Positions 415-7,458 of a DNA stretch of 64,000 bases are shown here, piece by piece. The DNA is taken from assembly GCF_030409335.1 (NCBI RefSeq), contig NZ_JAUFPN010000206.1, positions 1-64,000 of the forward strand. The letters are read 5' to 3'. The translations under genes and the position numbers were made by a program. Origin of the DNA: Paeniroseomonas aquatica (lineage in GTDB: Bacteria > Pseudomonadota > Alphaproteobacteria > Acetobacterales > Acetobacteraceae). Below the pieces are notes generated by a model, which was not told where the DNA came from, searched no databases, and was given only the letters and a program-made list of their open reading frames with translations. The stretch's first letter is position 1. Every line of letters begins with the position of its first letter.

Positions 415-535
415 GGGATTCTCCAGGCGGCGATCGGGCCGGAGAGTGGGCGCGCGAGGCGGCCGGAGCAAGCGGGGCGCTTGCCGGCAGGGCCCCGCCG
501 GCCCATTTTCACCGGCAACGAAGGAGCGCCGTCCC

Positions 536-1981
536 GTGATCAGCCTGCCCGAACCCAAGCCCGCCGTCATGGCGCGCCGCGCCGAGATCGTCGCCGGCCT
601 GCAGGCCCTGGTCCCAGGCGATGGGGTGATCAGCGAGGCGGTCCGCCTCAAGCCCTACGAGACCGACGGGCTCTCGGCCTATCGCCAGCCGCCGCTGGCG
701 GTGGTGCTGCCGACCACCACCGAGCAGGTGGCCGCGGTGCTGGCCTACTGCCACGCCAATGGCGTGCGGGTGGTGCCGCGCGGCGCCGGGACCAGCCTCT
801 CGGGCGGGGCGCTGCCGCTGGCCGATGCCGTGGTGCTCGGGCTGATGCGGATGAACCACATCCTCGAGGTCGACTACGCCAACCGCCTGGCGGTGGTGGA
901 GGCCGGCGTCACCAACCTCGGCATCACCAACCACGTCGCGGCCGACGGGTTCTTCTACGCGCCCGACCCGTCCAGCCAGCTCGCCTGCATGATCGGCGGC
1001 AACGTCAACATGAACTCGGGCGGGGCCCACTGCCTGAAGTACGGCGTCACCGCCAACAACCTGCTCGGCCTGAAGCTGGTGACCATCGAGGGCGAGATCT
1101 TCGAGGTCGGCGGCCGGTACCTCGATGCCGCGGGCTACGACTGGCTCGGCCTGCTGACGGGGTCCGAGGGCCAGCTCGCCGTCATCACCGAGGTCACCGT
1201 CCGCATCCTCCACAGCCCCGAGGGCCAGCGGGCGATGCTGGCCGCCTTCACCTCGAACGAGATCGCCGGCGAGGCGGTGGACGCCATCATCGCCTCCGGC
1301 ATCATCCCCGTCGCATTGGAATTCATGGACCGGCCGGCGATCCATGCCTGCGAGGCCTTCGCCCACGCCGGCTACCCGCTGGACGCCGAGGCCATGCTGA
1401 TCATCGAGGTCGAGGGCTCGACCGCGGAGCAGGACATGCTGCTCGGCCGGCTGAAGGAGATCTGCGAGCGCTTCGCCCCGATCAGCCTGAAGGTGGCCGA
1501 GACCGCCGAGCAGTCGCTGGCCATCTGGAAGGGGCGCAAGGGCGCCTTCGGCGCGGTGGGGCGCATCTCCCCGGACTACCTCTGCATGGACGGCACCATC
1601 CCGACCGGGCAGCTGCCCTTCGTGCTCAAGCGGATCGGCGAGATGTCGGCGAGCTACGGCCTGCAGGTGGCGAACATCTTCCATGCCGGCGACGGCAACC
1701 TGCATCCGCTGATCATGTTCGACGCCAACGACCCCAAAAGCTTCCATGACGCCGAGCAATTCGGCGCCGATATCCTGACGCTCTGCGTCGAGGTCGGCGG
1801 GTGTCTCACCGGCGAGCACGGCGTCGGCGTCGAGAAGCGCGACCTGATGCCGGTGCAATTCACCCCCTTCGAGCTGGACCAGATGCGCGCGGTGAAGGCG
1901 GCCTTCGATCCCGACTGGCTGCTGAACCCGGCCAAGGTCTTCCCGCTCGAGGGCAATGCCGCCTTCCAGACCGCGGCATGA
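536..1981 (+). CDS. glcD: Glycolate oxidase FAD subunit GlcD
   Basis: This is a 481-residue FAD-linked oxidase of the GlcD/D-lactate dehydrogenase family, which oxidises glycolate to glyoxylate together with GlcE and GlcF. The PCMH-type FAD-binding domain covers roughly residues 50-230, with the flavin loop PRGAGTSLSGG at 81-91. The FAD-oxidase C domain follows, with HAGDGNLHP and LTGEHGVGVEKR near the end. The GTG at 536 is preferred because AAGGAG sits 9 nt upstream; the longer reading from 446 would add a basic, low-complexity leader. Its stop overlaps the glcE start (ATGA), so the two are translationally coupled. Substrate could also be D-lactate; the glcDE pairing favours glycolate. Confidence 0.93.
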   Translation: MISLPEPKPAVMARRAEIVAGLQALVPGDGVISEAVRLKPYETDGLSAYRQPPLAVVLPTTTEQVAAVLAYCHANGVRVVPRGAGTSLSGGALPLADAVVLGLMRMNHILEVDYANRLAVVEAGVTNLGITNHVAADGFFYAPDPSSQLACMIGGNVNMNSGGAHCLKYGVTANNLLGLKLVTIEGEIFEVGGRYLDAAGYDWLGLLTGSEGQLAVITEVTVRILHSPEGQRAMLAAFTSNEIAGEAVDAIIASGIIPVALEFMDRPAIHACEAFAHAGYPLDAEAMLIIEVEGSTAEQDMLLGRLKEICERFAPISLKVAETAEQSLAIWKGRKGAFGAVGRISPDYLCMDGTIPTGQLPFVLKRIGEMSASYGLQVANIFHAGDGNLHPLIMFDANDPKSFHDAEQFGADILTLCVEVGGCLTGEHGVGVEKRDLMPVQFTPFELDQMRAVKAAFDPDWLLNPAKVFPLEGNAAFQTAA

Positions 1982-3144
1982 GCGAGACGCTGCTGCCGGC
2001 CGACGAGCCGGCCGTCGCCGCCGCCATCGCCGCGGCCGCCGCCGCCGGCGAGCCGCTGGCGATCGAGGGGCGGGGGACCAAGCGGGCCCTGCTGCGGCCG
2101 GTGCAGGCGGCCCGCACCCTGTCGCTGCGCAAGCTCTCCGGCATCACGCTCTACCGGCCGCAGGAGCTGATCCTCTCGGCCTGGGCCGGCACGCCGCTGC
2201 CCGAGATCGAGGCGGCGCTGGCCGAACGCGGCCAGCAGGTGGTGGCCGAGCCGCCCGATCTCACTGCCCTGTTCGGCGCGACCGAGGCGGCGACCATCGG
2301 CGGCCTGGTCGCCACCAACCTCTCCGGCCCGCGGCGCATCACCGCCGGGGCGATGCGCGACCATGTCATGGGCATCCGCGCCATGAACGGCCTGGGCGAG
2401 GTCTTCCGCAGCGGCGGCCGGGTGCTGAAGAACGTCACCGGGCTCGACCTCTGCAAGCTGCTGGCGGGCAGTCACGGCACGCTCGGCGTCATCACCGAGG
2501 TGACGCTGAAGGTGCTGCCGGCGGCGCCGGCGACCGGCACCGTGGCGGTGCGGGTCGCCGACCTCACGGCGGCGGTGCGGGTGCTCTCGGCCGGGCTGGG
2601 CAGTCCCTATGGGGTGAGCGGCGCGGCGGTACTGCCGGGCGAGCACCCGCTGGCGGTCCTGCGGCTGGAGGAATTCCCGGAGTCGATCGCCTATCGGGCC
2701 GGGCGTCTGCGGGATGCGCTGGCTGGCATGGGTGAGGTCTCGGTCATCGAGGATGCCGAGAGCCGGGCGCTGTGGCGCCGGGTGCGCGATGCCGAGCCGC
2801 TGGAAGCCGCGCCGGAGGAGGCGATCTGGCGCGTCTCGGTGCAGCCGACGGCGGGGCCGGGGGTGGTCGCCGCCCTCGGCTTCGGCAAGTCCCTGCTGGA
2901 CTGGGGCGGCGGGCTGGTCTGGCTGGCCGGGCCGGCCACCGCCGAGACGCATGCTGCGGTGATGGCCGCGGCGGCGGCGGCCGGCGGCAGCTTCACCCTG
3001 TTCCGCGGGCCGGAGGCGCTGCGGGCCGCCGTCGCGGTCTTGCCGGAGGAACCGGCGGCGTTGGCGGCGATCGGCCGCCGGGTCAAGGCGGTGATGGACC
3101 CGCGGGGCGTGCTGAACCCGGGCCGGATGCGGGCGGCCGGCTAG
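1978..3144 (+). CDS. glcE: Glycolate oxidase FAD-binding subunit GlcE
   Basis: This 388-residue protein is the second flavin-binding subunit of glycolate oxidase. It has the shortened GlcE form of the FAD_binding_4 fold: a glycine-rich loop IEGRGTKRALLRP near residue 32 and the signature LAGSHGTLGVITEVTLKVLP around 165, with no complete C-terminal oxidase domain. It ends with the family-typical MDPRGVLNPGRM. The start overlaps the glcD stop by 4 nt. GlcF, the iron-sulfur partner, is not next to it but 3 kb downstream at 6136, separated by three unrelated genes. Confidence 0.9.
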   Translation: MSETLLPADEPAVAAAIAAAAAAGEPLAIEGRGTKRALLRPVQAARTLSLRKLSGITLYRPQELILSAWAGTPLPEIEAALAERGQQVVAEPPDLTALFGATEAATIGGLVATNLSGPRRITAGAMRDHVMGIRAMNGLGEVFRSGGRVLKNVTGLDLCKLLAGSHGTLGVITEVTLKVLPAAPATGTVAVRVADLTAAVRVLSAGLGSPYGVSGAAVLPGEHPLAVLRLEEFPESIAYRAGRLRDALAGMGEVSVIEDAESRALWRRVRDAEPLEAAPEEAIWRVSVQPTAGPGVVAALGFGKSLLDWGGGLVWLAGPATAETHAAVMAAAAAAGGSFTLFRGPEALRAAVAVLPEEPAALAAIGRRVKAVMDPRGVLNPGRMRAAG

Positions 3145-3189: not shown

Positions 3190-3933
3190 TCAGCGGCCGG
3201 CGATCCGTGAAGGCCCGGCGGCATCGACCACGGAATGCGCCAGGGCCTGGGCGATGCAGGTATAGCCGCGGTCGTTGTGGTGCAACCCATCCGGCCCGAT
3301 CATGGCGTCATTCGGAATGCCGGCGGCCTCCCAGGCCTGCATGAGGGCGGCGCGCGAGAAGAGCGGCACCCGCAGCCCGGTCGAGAGGCTGCGAAGGGCA
3401 GCATCGAAGCTGGCGAAATTCGGGGCCAGCAGGATCCGCGGTGCCCGCTGGCTGTCCATCAGCACCACATCGACCCCGCGGGCCCGCAGCCGCTCGATGC
3501 CATCCGTCATGGCCGCGATGAAGCTGTCCGGCGCCATGCCCCGCAGCACCGCATTGGCCCCGGCCTGCCAGATGACCAGGGTCGGTCGGGCGGCGATGAC
3601 GTCGGTCTCCAGCCGGTCCATCATCTCGTCGACTTCCTGGCCGCCCCGGCCACGGTTGAGCACCCGCAGCCGGGCATCCGGCAGGGCGGCCTGCAGCCGG
3701 GCCTCGAGCACGGCCGGATAGGCCCGGTCCTGGCCGCTCGCGCCTGATCCCTCGGTGGAGGAGGAGCCGAAGGCGACGATCGTCACCTTGCGGCCCTGCG
3801 CCAGGGCGGCCCGGGTCCCCGGCAGGGAGAGGATCTGCGCCGGCCCCATGGGGCAGGGTGCCTCCGCCTGGGCCAGGGGGACGGCCGCCGACAGGGCGAG
3901 GAGGAGGAGGGGGATGAAGGCGAGGGGGCGCAT
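3190..3933 (-). CDS. Secreted SGNH/GDSL-type hydrolase, catalytic residues present
   Basis: This is a 247-residue protein with a signal peptide (residues 1-23, ending AQA) and an SGNH-hydrolase fold. Block I is FGSSSTEG (55-62), a GSS variant of GDS with the nucleophile Ser kept; block III is GAN (125-127); block V is DGLHH (215-219), which supplies the Asp-His pair. It should act as a periplasmic esterase or acetyl/acyl-transferase. It is divergent from the OpgC-type acyltransferase gene, 108 nt away, and a second SGNH-like gene lies on the far side of that gene, so a role in O-acyl modification of an envelope glycan is inferred. The substrate cannot be read from the sequence. Confidence 0.8.
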   Translation of the reverse strand: MRPLAFIPLLLLALSAAVPLAQAEAPCPMGPAQILSLPGTRAALAQGRKVTIVAFGSSSTEGSGASGQDRAYPAVLEARLQAALPDARLRVLNRGRGGQEVDEMMDRLETDVIAARPTLVIWQAGANAVLRGMAPDSFIAAMTDGIERLRARGVDVVLMDSQRAPRILLAPNFASFDAALRSLSTGLRVPLFSRAALMQAWEAAGIPNDAMIGPDGLHHNDRGYTCIAQALAHSVVDAAGPSRIAGR

Positions 3934-4041
3934 CCCCTCGAAGCTGCCGCAAGCGGCAGCGTCGCGCCAGTCTCAATGGCGAGAAAAGGTCTCACTTGCG
4001 TCGCCACCGACCACCCCCCAAAGCTGCTGGTGGAGGTGGCA

Positions 4042-5265
4042 ATGCGGCAGTTTATCCGGGGCTTGCAGCCTGCGAGTGGGGTCGGGGCCGGACGGGACCT
4101 GCGTGCGGATGCCTTCCGCGGCATTGCGCTGTGGTTCATCCTGATCGATCACATGCCGGGTAACCGGCTGGGCGGCCTCACCCTGCGCAACATCGCACTC
4201 TGCGATGCGACCGAGGGTTTCGTGCTGCTGGCCGGCTATGCCGCCGGCATCGCCTACGGGGCGACGCTCGACCGGCGGAGCTGGAGCTTCGCCGCCGCGT
4301 CGCTGCTGCGCCGGGTCGGGACGCTCTACGTCGCGCACATATTCCTCTTCGTCGTCTTCACCGCCCAGGTCGGCTATTCCGCCGCAGCGCTCGAGAGCTC
4401 GGCCTACCTGGACGAGCTGCACCTCGACGTCTTCGGCGAGCAGCCCTACCTGGCGTTGCTGCAGGCGCTGCTGCTGCGGTTCCAGCCGGCCTTCCTCGAC
4501 ATCCTGCCGATGTACATCGTGCTGCTGCTGCTGCTGGTCCCGGCCCTCCCGCTGCTGCGCCGGCCGGCGCTGCTGATGGCCCTCAGCGGCATCGCCTATG
4601 TGGCGGTACGGCTCTTCGACCTCAACCTGCCGAACTGGACGGGCGGCGGCTGGTTCTTCAACCCGCTGGCGTGGCAGGTGCTGTTCTTCACCGGCGCGGC
4701 CCTGGGCTATGCGCCGCCGCGTCCGGGAGCCGGCCGGTCGGTGGTGCCGGTGGTGCCCTTCCACCCCGGCCTGGTCGCGGCTTCGGTCGTGACCCTGGCG
4801 CTCAGCGCCGCGGTGCTGCTGGTCGGGGACTATCGCGAGCACTGGCTGGCGGAGCTGCCGCTGCCCCTGGCGGAGCTGCTCACCACCATCGACAAGACCG
4901 GCCTCCATCCCTTCCGCCTGCTGTCGATCCTCGCCCTGGCCTACCTGCTCGGGCATGCGGTGCCGCGCCACGCGCCCTGGCTCCGCGGCCGGCTGGCGGC
5001 GCCCTTCGTGCTCATGGGCCAGCATGGCCTGCCGGTTTTCTGCGCCGGCATCTTCCTGGCCTTCCTCGGCCGGCTGGCGCTGGAGATGGACGACCGCTGG
5101 CTGATGCAGGCCGCGGTGAACATGGCCGGCCTGGCGGCCCTGGTGTCGATCGGCGTCGTCGCCGGCTGGTACCGGCTACGGGAGAAGGGGGAGGCCCGGT
5201 ACCCGGCCGCGGCTGCCGCTGACCGCTTGCAGCCCGCCGCCGCGTCTTCTACGACAGCGACATGA
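4042..5265 (+). CDS. OpgC-family membrane acyltransferase
   Basis: This is a 407-residue polytopic inner-membrane protein with about ten hydrophobic segments. It carries the OpgC/acyltransferase-3-like signature RADAFRGIALWFILIDHMPG at residues 21-40. E. coli OpgC adds succinyl groups to osmoregulated periplasmic glucans. The ATG at 4042 is chosen because GGAGG lies 5 nt upstream; an in-frame ATG at 3976 has no such site. The stop overlaps the start of the following SGNH-like gene (ATGA), a strong sign that the two products work together. The donor and the glycan acceptor are unknown here, and no opgG/opgH glucan synthesis genes are in the window. Confidence 0.8.
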   Translation: MRQFIRGLQPASGVGAGRDLRADAFRGIALWFILIDHMPGNRLGGLTLRNIALCDATEGFVLLAGYAAGIAYGATLDRRSWSFAAASLLRRVGTLYVAHIFLFVVFTAQVGYSAAALESSAYLDELHLDVFGEQPYLALLQALLLRFQPAFLDILPMYIVLLLLLVPALPLLRRPALLMALSGIAYVAVRLFDLNLPNWTGGGWFFNPLAWQVLFFTGAALGYAPPRPGAGRSVVPVVPFHPGLVAASVVTLALSAAVLLVGDYREHWLAELPLPLAELLTTIDKTGLHPFRLLSILALAYLLGHAVPRHAPWLRGRLAAPFVLMGQHGLPVFCAGIFLAFLGRLALEMDDRWLMQAAVNMAGLAALVSIGVVAGWYRLREKGEARYPAAAAADRLQPAAASSTTAT

Positions 5266-6026
5266 TTTCCGGTGCCGGCCGCATCCTGCTGCTGTTCGGC
5301 CTGCTGCTGGCCCCGCCGGCGGCCCGGGCCGCCGTGCCGGCCTGTGACCTGCCGCTCGAGCTGCTGCAGGCGAGCGCCGCCCTGCCGGCCACGGCGCGGG
5401 CCGCCAGCGCCGGCCGGCTGCGGATCCTGGTGGTCGGCGGGGCCTCGGTCTTCGGTCCCGGCACCAGCGCGCCGGCGGCGGCCTGGCCTGCCCGGCTCGA
5501 GGCGCTGATCCGGGCCCGCAACCCCCAGCTTCAGCTGGAGGTGGTGACGCGCGGCGCACGCGGCCTCACCACCGCCGAGACCGCCGATATCATTGCCTCC
5601 GAGCTGCGCACCGACCCACCCAACCTGGTGCTGTGGCAGGCCGGCACGGCGGAAGCGGTGCGCGGCCTCGCCCTGGACGAGATGGTGGAGGCCTTGAACA
5701 GCGGCCTGACCAAAATGATCTCCGCCGGCGTCGATGCCGTGATCATGGACCAGCAATTCTCCCGCTTCCTGCGCGCCAACGCCAATGTGGACGCCTACCG
5801 GGACGCGCTGCGGCTGGCCGCGGCCGCGCACGGGGTGCCGGTGCTGCGGCGCTGGGACCTGATGTGGCACTGGGCGGACAACAACCAGGTCGACCTCGAG
5901 CGGGCGGCCCGCAGCGAACGGGCCGCGGCGACCGACCTGCTGAACGAATGCCTGGCGCGGGCCATGCAGGTCCTGCTGCGGGACGGGGTGGACGAGGCAC
6001 GGGGCAGGCCGGGACCGCGGCCCTAG
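5262..6026 (+). CDS. SGNH-like periplasmic protein with degenerate active site
   Basis: This 254-residue protein has a signal peptide (about residues 1-23, PAARA) and the same overall pattern as the SGNH protein at 3190-3933. It is coupled by a 4-nt overlap to the OpgC-type gene. The motif positions have drifted: block I is VVGGASVFG (57-65), keeping Ser62 but losing Asp; the block III Asn is replaced (QAGTA, 126-130); and no Asp-x-x-His block V is visible near the C terminus, where WHWADNNQVD occurs instead. It may be a non-catalytic glycan-binding or adaptor partner, or use different residues. The family call rests on the matching RILVVGG, LVLWQAG and VDAVIMD strands. Confidence 0.65.
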   Translation: MISGAGRILLLFGLLLAPPAARAAVPACDLPLELLQASAALPATARAASAGRLRILVVGGASVFGPGTSAPAAAWPARLEALIRARNPQLQLEVVTRGARGLTTAETADIIASELRTDPPNLVLWQAGTAEAVRGLALDEMVEALNSGLTKMISAGVDAVIMDQQFSRFLRANANVDAYRDALRLAAAAHGVPVLRRWDLMWHWADNNQVDLERAARSERAAATDLLNECLARAMQVLLRDGVDEARGRPGPRP

Positions 6027-6135: not shown

Positions 6136-7458
6136 ATGCAAACCAATTTCTCGCCGGACCAGCTGCAGGACCCCGATACGCGGGAGAGCAATGGCATCCT
6201 GCGCACCTGCGTCCATTGCGGCTTCTGCACCGCTACCTGCCCGACCTTCGTGCTGCTGGGCGACGAGCTGGATAGCCCGCGCGGCCGCATCTACCTGATC
6301 AAGGAGATGCTGGAAGGCGGCAAGCCGGCGACCGAGGAGGTGGTCCGCCATGTCGACCGCTGCCTCTCGTGCCTGTCGTGCATGACCACCTGCCCCTCGG
6401 GCGTGAATTACATGCACCTGGTCGACCACGCCCGGCATTACATCGAGGACACCTATGTCCGGCCCTGGCCGGAGCGTGCCCTGCGGGGCCTGCTCTCCCG
6501 CGTGCTGCCCTATCCGGCCCGGTTCCGCGCCGCGCTGATGGGCGCCCGGCTCGGCCGGCCCCTGGCGCGGCTGGTGCCCGGCGCCTCGCTGACCGCCGAG
6601 CGCCTGCGCGCCATGTTCCGGCTCGCCCCCGGCGCCCTGCCGCCGGCCAGCCCGATGCAGGCGCCGCAGATCCACAAGGCCGAGGGTATCCGCCGCGGCC
6701 GGGTCGCCCTGCTGACCGGCTGCGCCCAGACCGTGCTGGCGCCCTCGATCAACGAGGCGACCATCCGGCTGCTGACCCGCATGGGGATCGAGGTGGTGAT
6801 CACCCGCGAACAGGGCTGCTGCGGCGCGCTGAACCACCACATGGGCGACCGCGAGCCGGCCATGGCCCTGGCCCGGGCCAATATCGCCGCCTGGAGCCGC
6901 GAGGCCGAGGGCGAGGGGCTGGATGCCATCGTCGTCAATACCTCGGGCTGCGGCACCACGGTGAAGGACTACGGCTTCATGTTCCGCGAGGAGCCGGCGC
7001 CCTGGAAGGCGCGGGCCGAAGCGGTGGCCGGGCTGGCGAAGGATGTCTCCGAGGTGCTGCTGCAGTTCGGCTATGCCCCCAGCCGGGAGGCACCGGAGCT
7101 GACGGTCGCCTATCACAGCGCCTGCTCGCTGCAGCATGGCCAGAAGGTCACCGCGGCGCCGAAGCAGCTGCTGGCCAAGGCCGGCTTCCGGGTGAAGGAG
7201 CCGGCCGAGGGGCATCTCTGCTGCGGCAGCGCCGGCACCTACAACATCCTGCAGCCGGTCATCGCGGCACAGCTGCGGGAGCGGAAGCTCGGCAACATCG
7301 CCCGCACCGGCGCCGACCTGATCGCCGCCGGCAACATCGGCTGCCTCACCCAGCTCGCCGGGGACACCCTCCCAGTGGCCCATACGGTCGAGCTGCTGGA
7401 CTGGATGGCCGGCGGCCCGGCACCGCCGGCGGTGGCAGCGGCCAGGCGCGCCGCGTGA
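6136..7458 (+). CDS. glcF: Glycolate oxidase iron-sulfur subunit GlcF
   Basis: This 440-residue protein is the electron-transfer subunit of glycolate oxidase. Two 4Fe-4S clusters are predicted from CVHCGFCTATCP (Cys 25, 28, 31, 35) and CLSCLSCMTTCP (Cys 76, 79, 82, 86). Two cysteine-rich CCG domains follow, with EQGCCGAL near 231 and GHLCCGSAGTY near 358, as in GlcF and heterodisulfide-reductase-like proteins. It is separated from glcDE by the acyltransferase island, which is unusual. A GTG start for the next gene overlaps its stop. Confidence 0.92.
   Translation: MQTNFSPDQLQDPDTRESNGILRTCVHCGFCTATCPTFVLLGDELDSPRGRIYLIKEMLEGGKPATEEVVRHVDRCLSCLSCMTTCPSGVNYMHLVDHARHYIEDTYVRPWPERALRGLLSRVLPYPARFRAALMGARLGRPLARLVPGASLTAERLRAMFRLAPGALPPASPMQAPQIHKAEGIRRGRVALLTGCAQTVLAPSINEATIRLLTRMGIEVVITREQGCCGALNHHMGDREPAMALARANIAAWSREAEGEGLDAIVVNTSGCGTTVKDYGFMFREEPAPWKARAEAVAGLAKDVSEVLLQFGYAPSREAPELTVAYHSACSLQHGQKVTAAPKQLLAKAGFRVKEPAEGHLCCGSAGTYNILQPVIAAQLRERKLGNIARTGADLIAAGNIGCLTQLAGDTLPVAHTVELLDWMAGGPAPPAVAAARRAA

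Follow-up and report, generated by a model that had tools for sequence, protein, structure and literature searches.

An OpgC-family membrane acyltransferase, a catalytically intact SGNH protein (SGNH1) and an SGNH pseudoenzyme (SGNH2) are encoded by a gene set that recurs across Alphaproteobacteria. With moderate confidence, we interpret this set as a three-protein envelope acylation system in which OpgC is the acyl donor, SGNH1 the transferase and SGNH2 a non-catalytic partner. OpgC would pick up a short acyl group, either succinyl or acetyl, from a donor in the cytoplasm and carry it to the periplasmic side of the inner membrane. The secreted, intact SGNH1 would take the acyl group onto its serine and hand it on to a glycan hydroxyl in the periplasm or at the cell surface, and SGNH2, translated with OpgC, may act as a fixed partner whose task is to dock on OpgC, to hold SGNH1 or to bind the glycan. 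We infer the complex, the acyl group, the acceptor and the transferase, rather than esterase, direction of SGNH1. The proposal as a whole is supported by the full-length PF10129 match of OpgC, the catalytic triad kept in one SGNH type and lost in the other, the pairing of opgC with SGNH2, and the company of SGNH1. An initial annotation had proposed a module of this kind, and its recurrence across the class upholds the idea.

The locus and its three proteins

The genes lie in the window, the 64,000-nucleotide stretch of Paeniroseomonas aquatica DNA analysed here, which starts at base 1 of a 152.5-kb contig (NZ_JAUFPN010000206.1) from a 6.5-Mb genome. The order is glcD-glcE, SGNH1 (reversed), opgC, SGNH2 and glcF. 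SGNH1 (3190..3933, minus strand) encodes a secreted SGNH hydrolase-fold protein of 247 aa. The opgC gene (3976..5265, plus strand) encodes a multi-pass membrane acyltransferase of 429 aa from the transmembrane acyl transferase (TmAT) superfamily. SGNH2 (5262..6026, plus strand) encodes a secreted SGNH-fold pseudoenzyme of 254 aa, and its start overlaps the opgC stop by 4 nt, as ATGA. The glycolate oxidase genes, all on the plus strand, are context outside the module: glcD (524..1981), whose best matches are the NCBIfam GlcD models at scores under their cut-offs; glcE (1978..3144; GlcE at 281.7 bits, cut-off 284); and glcF (6136..7458), which passes the GlcF cut-off of 333 at 445 bits.

All of these reading frames are open and each matches a curated family in the Pfam or NCBIfam profiles. 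Our Belnapia set comprises eight genomes, with the source genome grouped among them. The order glcD-glcE-(SGNH1 reversed)-opgC-SGNH2-glcF is found again in six other Belnapia genomes, each examined over 16-19 kb, and in one sister genus; the proteins share 57-79% identity with those of the window. The gene order is thus not a chance arrangement, and the genes named at the outset are real.

OpgC matches PF10129 at 352 bits (cut-off 21.4) over profile positions 1-357 of 358 and carries a conserved RDxRxDxxRG...DH region. Its start codon is provisional, as another in-frame ATG lies at about 4042. Orthologues in the same relative position share 68-79% identity, and dN/dS within the genus is 0.24-0.32. 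Membership of this family suggests that the module carries out acylation. The source genome also holds a second, distant OpgC-like gene on contig C280 (L070), with 33% identity and one in-frame TAG in the matched stretch; it has no SGNH neighbours, and a match to an FlbD-like regulator lies about 5 kb off.

The two SGNH proteins both exceed the curated cut-off of PF25182 (NonGDSL, ‘Non-GDSL lipase-like family’), SGNH2 with the better score (241 bits, against 170 bits for SGNH1). Both also match PF13472, SGNH1 at 70 bits and SGNH2 at 37 bits. The PF25182 family name carries no function; we draw the split between intact and dead types, and the connection with OpgC, from the present data. SGNH1 has an N-terminal signal-peptide-like segment and intact blocks: FGSSSTEG (Ser), NRGRGG (Gly), WQAGANA (Asn) and DGLHH (Asp-His). 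An alignment of 93 family members comprised 45 of the SGNH1 type and 48 of the SGNH2 type. The catalytic Ser, Asn, Asp and His are kept in 45/45 SGNH1-type proteins, with the block II Gly replaced in some. Among SGNH2-type proteins, the Asn and Asp-His are absent in 48/48 and the catalytic Ser in 46/48; SGNH2 of the window has Ala, Ala, Glu and Ala at the Ser, Asn, Asp and His columns. In every bootstrap tree a single branch separates the two types. Both window proteins have a cysteine near each end of the domain, invariant within each type, and the pair may form a disulfide.

Loss of the catalytic residues has left the fold of SGNH2 in place. Its AlphaFold model (pLDDT 95.1) finds SGNH/GDSL esterases as the best solved structures (Z 20.1, rmsd 2.5 over 198 residues), and in comparison with the SGNH1 model its Asp/His loop has given way to the first part of a long C-terminal helix. 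Estimates of dN/dS within the genus stand at about 0.25 for SGNH2 and 0.23-0.35 for SGNH1. SGNH2 is a maintained pseudoenzyme under purifying selection; its conservation and this selection rule out a decaying pseudogene. The description of the second SGNH protein as degenerate was therefore apt for its catalytic residues and wrong if taken to mean decay.

For SGNH1, the AlphaFold model (pLDDT 93.8) lies closest to carbohydrate esterases (Z 23.9), and its closest folds also include Ape1, the enzyme that removes O-acetyl groups from peptidoglycan. This likeness favours the main rival to our proposal, which is that OpgC transfers the acyl group alone, in the manner assumed of stand-alone enzymes, SGNH1 is an opposing esterase, and SGNH2 has a non-catalytic part, as a regulator or as a subunit that binds glycan. 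The frequent placement of SGNH1 on the opposite strand or elsewhere in the genome is likewise what separate control would produce. However, most of the solved SGNH structures used for matching are esterases, so the fold match is silent on direction, and in Bradyrhizobium-type genomes all three genes share one strand. We regard the opposing-esterase explanation as unlikely.

Distribution and age of the gene set

SGNH2 relatives were sought in one genome per species; 351 were found, and the best 80 were examined for neighbourhood. All 80 of these were of the SGNH2 type, and they span the Acetobacteraceae and relatives as well as the Nitrobacteraceae (Bradyrhizobium, Tardiphaga and Afipia). In 73 of the best 80, all from named genomes, opgC lies directly upstream on the same strand, and the SGNH2 start often overlaps the opgC stop codon. 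In the Nitrobacteraceae, the Bradyrhizobium-type arrangement is an unbroken row of opgC-SGNH2-SGNH1, which adds support to the three-protein acylation system.

Co-occurrence was followed in a sample of 147 genomes, with a per-genus test that took one genome per genus within the family and was uncorrected for shared ancestry. The opgC gene stands next to SGNH2 in 37 of the 147, and SGNH1 is present in 30 of these 37 versus 16 of the 110 others. Per genus, SGNH1 accompanies OpgC-SGNH2 in 19/26 cases versus 15/57 (p = 9e-5, ancestry-uncorrected). Physical linkage is dispensable for this association: in about a dozen OpgC-SGNH2 genomes SGNH1 lies on another contig or at a distance, and it is intact every time. 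Four genomes of this sample, from four other families of the class (G123, G131, G132 and G141), have all three proteins.

Two sets of genomes weaken the three-protein model. In seven OpgC-SGNH2 genomes of the sample no SGNH1 was seen, one having a partial candidate, and in six genomes SGNH2 is present with neither an OpgC match nor SGNH1; one of these six is a 100% complete assembly in 4 contigs. SGNH2 must therefore also act without OpgC. Among the neighbours checked in OpgC-less genomes, no acyltransferase adjoins SGNH2; flagellar, SRP or COX2 genes are found instead. Other genomes form a group in which OpgC is paired with SGNH1 alone; in the tree these OpgC proteins lie outside the SGNH2-linked group. 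The module was first described as looking self-contained, a wording that the data do not support: the SGNH1 gene frequently lies elsewhere in the genome, and SGNH2 is also found in the absence of OpgC.

The glycolate oxidase locus records a later chapter. In several other Acetobacteraceae genera the glcE-glcF gap is a few tens of bases (L217, L220, L222, L224, L225, L229, L230 and L233). The Belnapia genomes read, like the sister genus G031, have glcE and glcF separated by SGNH1-opgC-SGNH2; G042 has the same layout as far as its contig end, G081 shows the glcDE side of it, and Siccirubricoccus shows the glcF side. The glc-located trios form one clade in the OpgC tree (support 98), adjoining genomes with the trio elsewhere. 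Because the position is common to Belnapia and several sister genera while glcDEF is contiguous in other genera, a single old relocation of the gene set into the locus is the simplest reading. A recent mobile insertion is ruled out by the same shared position and by the single OpgC clade. Comparison of the glcD-glcE-glcF run among relatives, as the initial annotation had suggested, showed it to be contiguous in other genera and interrupted in Belnapia and several sister genera. The separation of glcDE from glcF stands relative to those other genera. The inserted island was probably relocated relative to them, but it is not recent, its position being ancestral to Belnapia and the sister genera.

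The gene set is much older than its glc position; the OpgC-SGNH2 pair is found throughout the Acetobacteraceae, in a further four families of the class, and in Bradyrhizobium, Tardiphaga and Afipia. It is extremely improbable that the genes are passengers inserted in the glycolate oxidase locus, either lacking a coherent function or tied to glycolate use. Such a reading would fit the restriction of the glcE-glcF position to this lineage, but the same genes are conserved in other contexts, in at least two orders, and all three are under purifying selection. It is already contradicted by the conservation data.

Candidate acceptors and the flagellar neighbourhood

Neither opgG nor a GH94 cyclic glucan synthase was found in any of the eight Belnapia genomes (0/8 for each, the source genome included). 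The source genome does have, on contig C1 (L234:1401-4133), a full gene for a 910-aa GH17-GT2 fusion protein, which we take to be of the NdvB kind, a beta-glucan synthase type. A second protein with a GH17-like domain, possibly its partner, is encoded on contig C19 (L235:1488-3899). The GH17-GT2 gene is present in G000, G004 and G007 and was not detected in the other five Belnapia genomes, all of which carry the trio; these assemblies are listed as 97-99% complete, so gaps in them are a caveat on the absence. Since opgG and GH94 are absent from all eight genomes and GH17-GT2 from five, the Belnapia acceptor is probably neither an OpgG-type periplasmic glucan nor a glucan of the three tested synthases. 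As to the initial suggestion of a possibly undescribed glycan, the view that the acceptor is no known osmoregulated periplasmic glucan is upheld for those five genomes.

Association tests across genera speak to the same candidates. OpgC-SGNH2 is not associated with opgG (11/26 versus 26/57 genera, p = 0.82, ancestry-uncorrected), leaving an opgG glucan unsupported as the acceptor for SGNH2-linked OpgC. For a GH17-GT2 (NdvB-like) beta-glucan, the association over all genomes is weak (p = 0.014) and fades inside the family (p = 0.10), and the gene is missing from five Belnapia genomes; for a GH94 cyclic glucan, the eight Belnapia genomes hold no synthase. These candidates were set aside.

Could OpgC nonetheless perform ordinary succinylation of osmoregulated periplasmic glucans (OPGs), with the SGNH genes as incidental neighbours? 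Its family membership is in keeping with this, and OpgC found with SGNH1 only is opgG-enriched (9/11 versus 28/72, p = 0.01, ancestry-uncorrected); in four genera (L115, L117, L118 and L119, from G062, G048, G079 and G077) OpgC and an intact SGNH gene lie within 20 kb of opgG, the distance at these loci being no more than about 15 kb, which links SGNH1-type proteins to OPG genes there. However, the SGNH2-paired OpgC shows no such enrichment, opgG is missing from every Belnapia genome, with GH94 and GH17-GT2 missing as well from five, and the pairing with SGNH2 is too widespread for incidental neighbours. We consider ordinary OPG succinylation very unlikely.

No acceptor glycan gene was consistently linked to the loci examined, a result that, together with the description of E. 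coli OpgC as stand-alone, also weakens the three-protein model. In Bradyrhizobium (L199:6721-9749), genes near opgC-SGNH2-SGNH1 include hslO and, as identified by eye, one for a methionine-pathway sulfhydrylase, and no glycan synthesis gene was recognised within about 7 kb of this trio.

A recurring neighbourhood of another kind is flagellar. Some 15 genera have SGNH2 immediately downstream of flhF-fleN, where it closes a run of flagellar genes; opgC may be present or absent there. At seven loci (L104, L108, L110, L111, L112, L100 and L203) an SGNH2-type gene is directly downstream of flhF-fleN with no adjacent opgC, and G009 and G068 have SGNH2 at this position and no OpgC match anywhere in the genome. 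In the source genome itself, reference proteins for flagellar genes gave no match in the stretch near fliM. Within the family, fliM is present in 26/26 OpgC-SGNH2 genera versus 38/57 others (p = 4e-4, ancestry-uncorrected). This flagellar link of SGNH2 is a lead. Taken further, the position in OpgC-less genomes and the fliM counts would suit a protein that mainly serves the flagellum or its passage through the envelope, with OpgC as a secondary associate. Yet SGNH2 occurs in four genomes without fliM (G047, G070, G080 and G132), the Belnapia, Roseococcus, Elioraea and Bradyrhizobium loci lie away from flagellar genes, and the fliM statistics are uncorrected for shared ancestry. A mainly flagellar role is, on balance, quite improbable. 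A more specific form of the acylation proposal can be offered tentatively: the dead SGNH may be an obligatory structural partner of a stand-alone OpgC and, with the active SGNH, may acylate a non-OPG envelope glycan, with an ancestral flagellar tie.

Comparison with known acylation systems

A 2022 review raises the question of how stand-alone membrane acyltransferases, which have no SGNH domain fused to them, complete transfer, and whether they require an SGNH protein as a separate partner (PMC9558356). The gene set, found in about 30 genera among the genomes examined here, is a natural system for this question; with one active and one dead SGNH protein, catalysis and scaffolding become separable. 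Moreover, an ‘OpgC’ annotation need not imply OPG chemistry, because the SGNH2-linked type does not follow opgG. Each protein family and SGNH-assisted acylation are already known, whereas our searches of openly licensed papers turned up neither OpgC together with one dead and one live SGNH nor any work on SGNH partners of OpgC or on SGNH pseudoenzymes in such a role. The set is a good candidate for work on envelope sugar acylation.

The account of OpgC, SGNH1 and SGNH2 acting together draws on their families and on precedents from AT3-SGNH and alginate systems (PMC9558356, PMC7448272, PMC4148444, PMC10641220). Transfer by fused AT3-SGNH enzymes depends on an active SGNH domain, and WecH, an AT3-only protein, can supply a separate SGNH protein, PatB (PMC9558356). 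Acetylation of alginate involves a single membrane donor, two SGNH-like proteins and AlgF as a mediator that is not catalytic (PMC4148444, PMC10641220).

The closest relative of the membrane component is OpgC/MdoC, the OPG O-succinyltransferase of E. coli, Rhodobacter sphaeroides and Dickeya dadantii, which belongs to the same Pfam family over its full length and is likewise a predicted inner-membrane acyltransferase. Known OpgC/MdoC proteins are described as stand-alone and tied to opgGH glucans, whereas the OpgC studied here is coupled to an SGNH pseudoenzyme and found in genomes without opgG. The evidence here for a system of the AT3-SGNH or alginate type is gene coupling and co-occurrence. 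Like the fused acetyltransferases OafB and OatA, the set combines a membrane acyl-donor domain with an SGNH domain outside the membrane; unlike them, it uses separate genes, OpgC in place of the AT3 domain, and two SGNH proteins, one catalytically dead. With AlgI-AlgJ-AlgF-AlgX (and PatA/PatB) it shares a membrane donor, two SGNH-fold proteins, one of which is not necessarily the terminal transferase, and a non-catalytic mediator. The alginate donor is an MBOAT protein in place of OpgC, and AlgF has a beta-sandwich structure; AlgJ and AlgX, unlike the dead SGNH2, are described as SGNH hydrolase-like enzymes.
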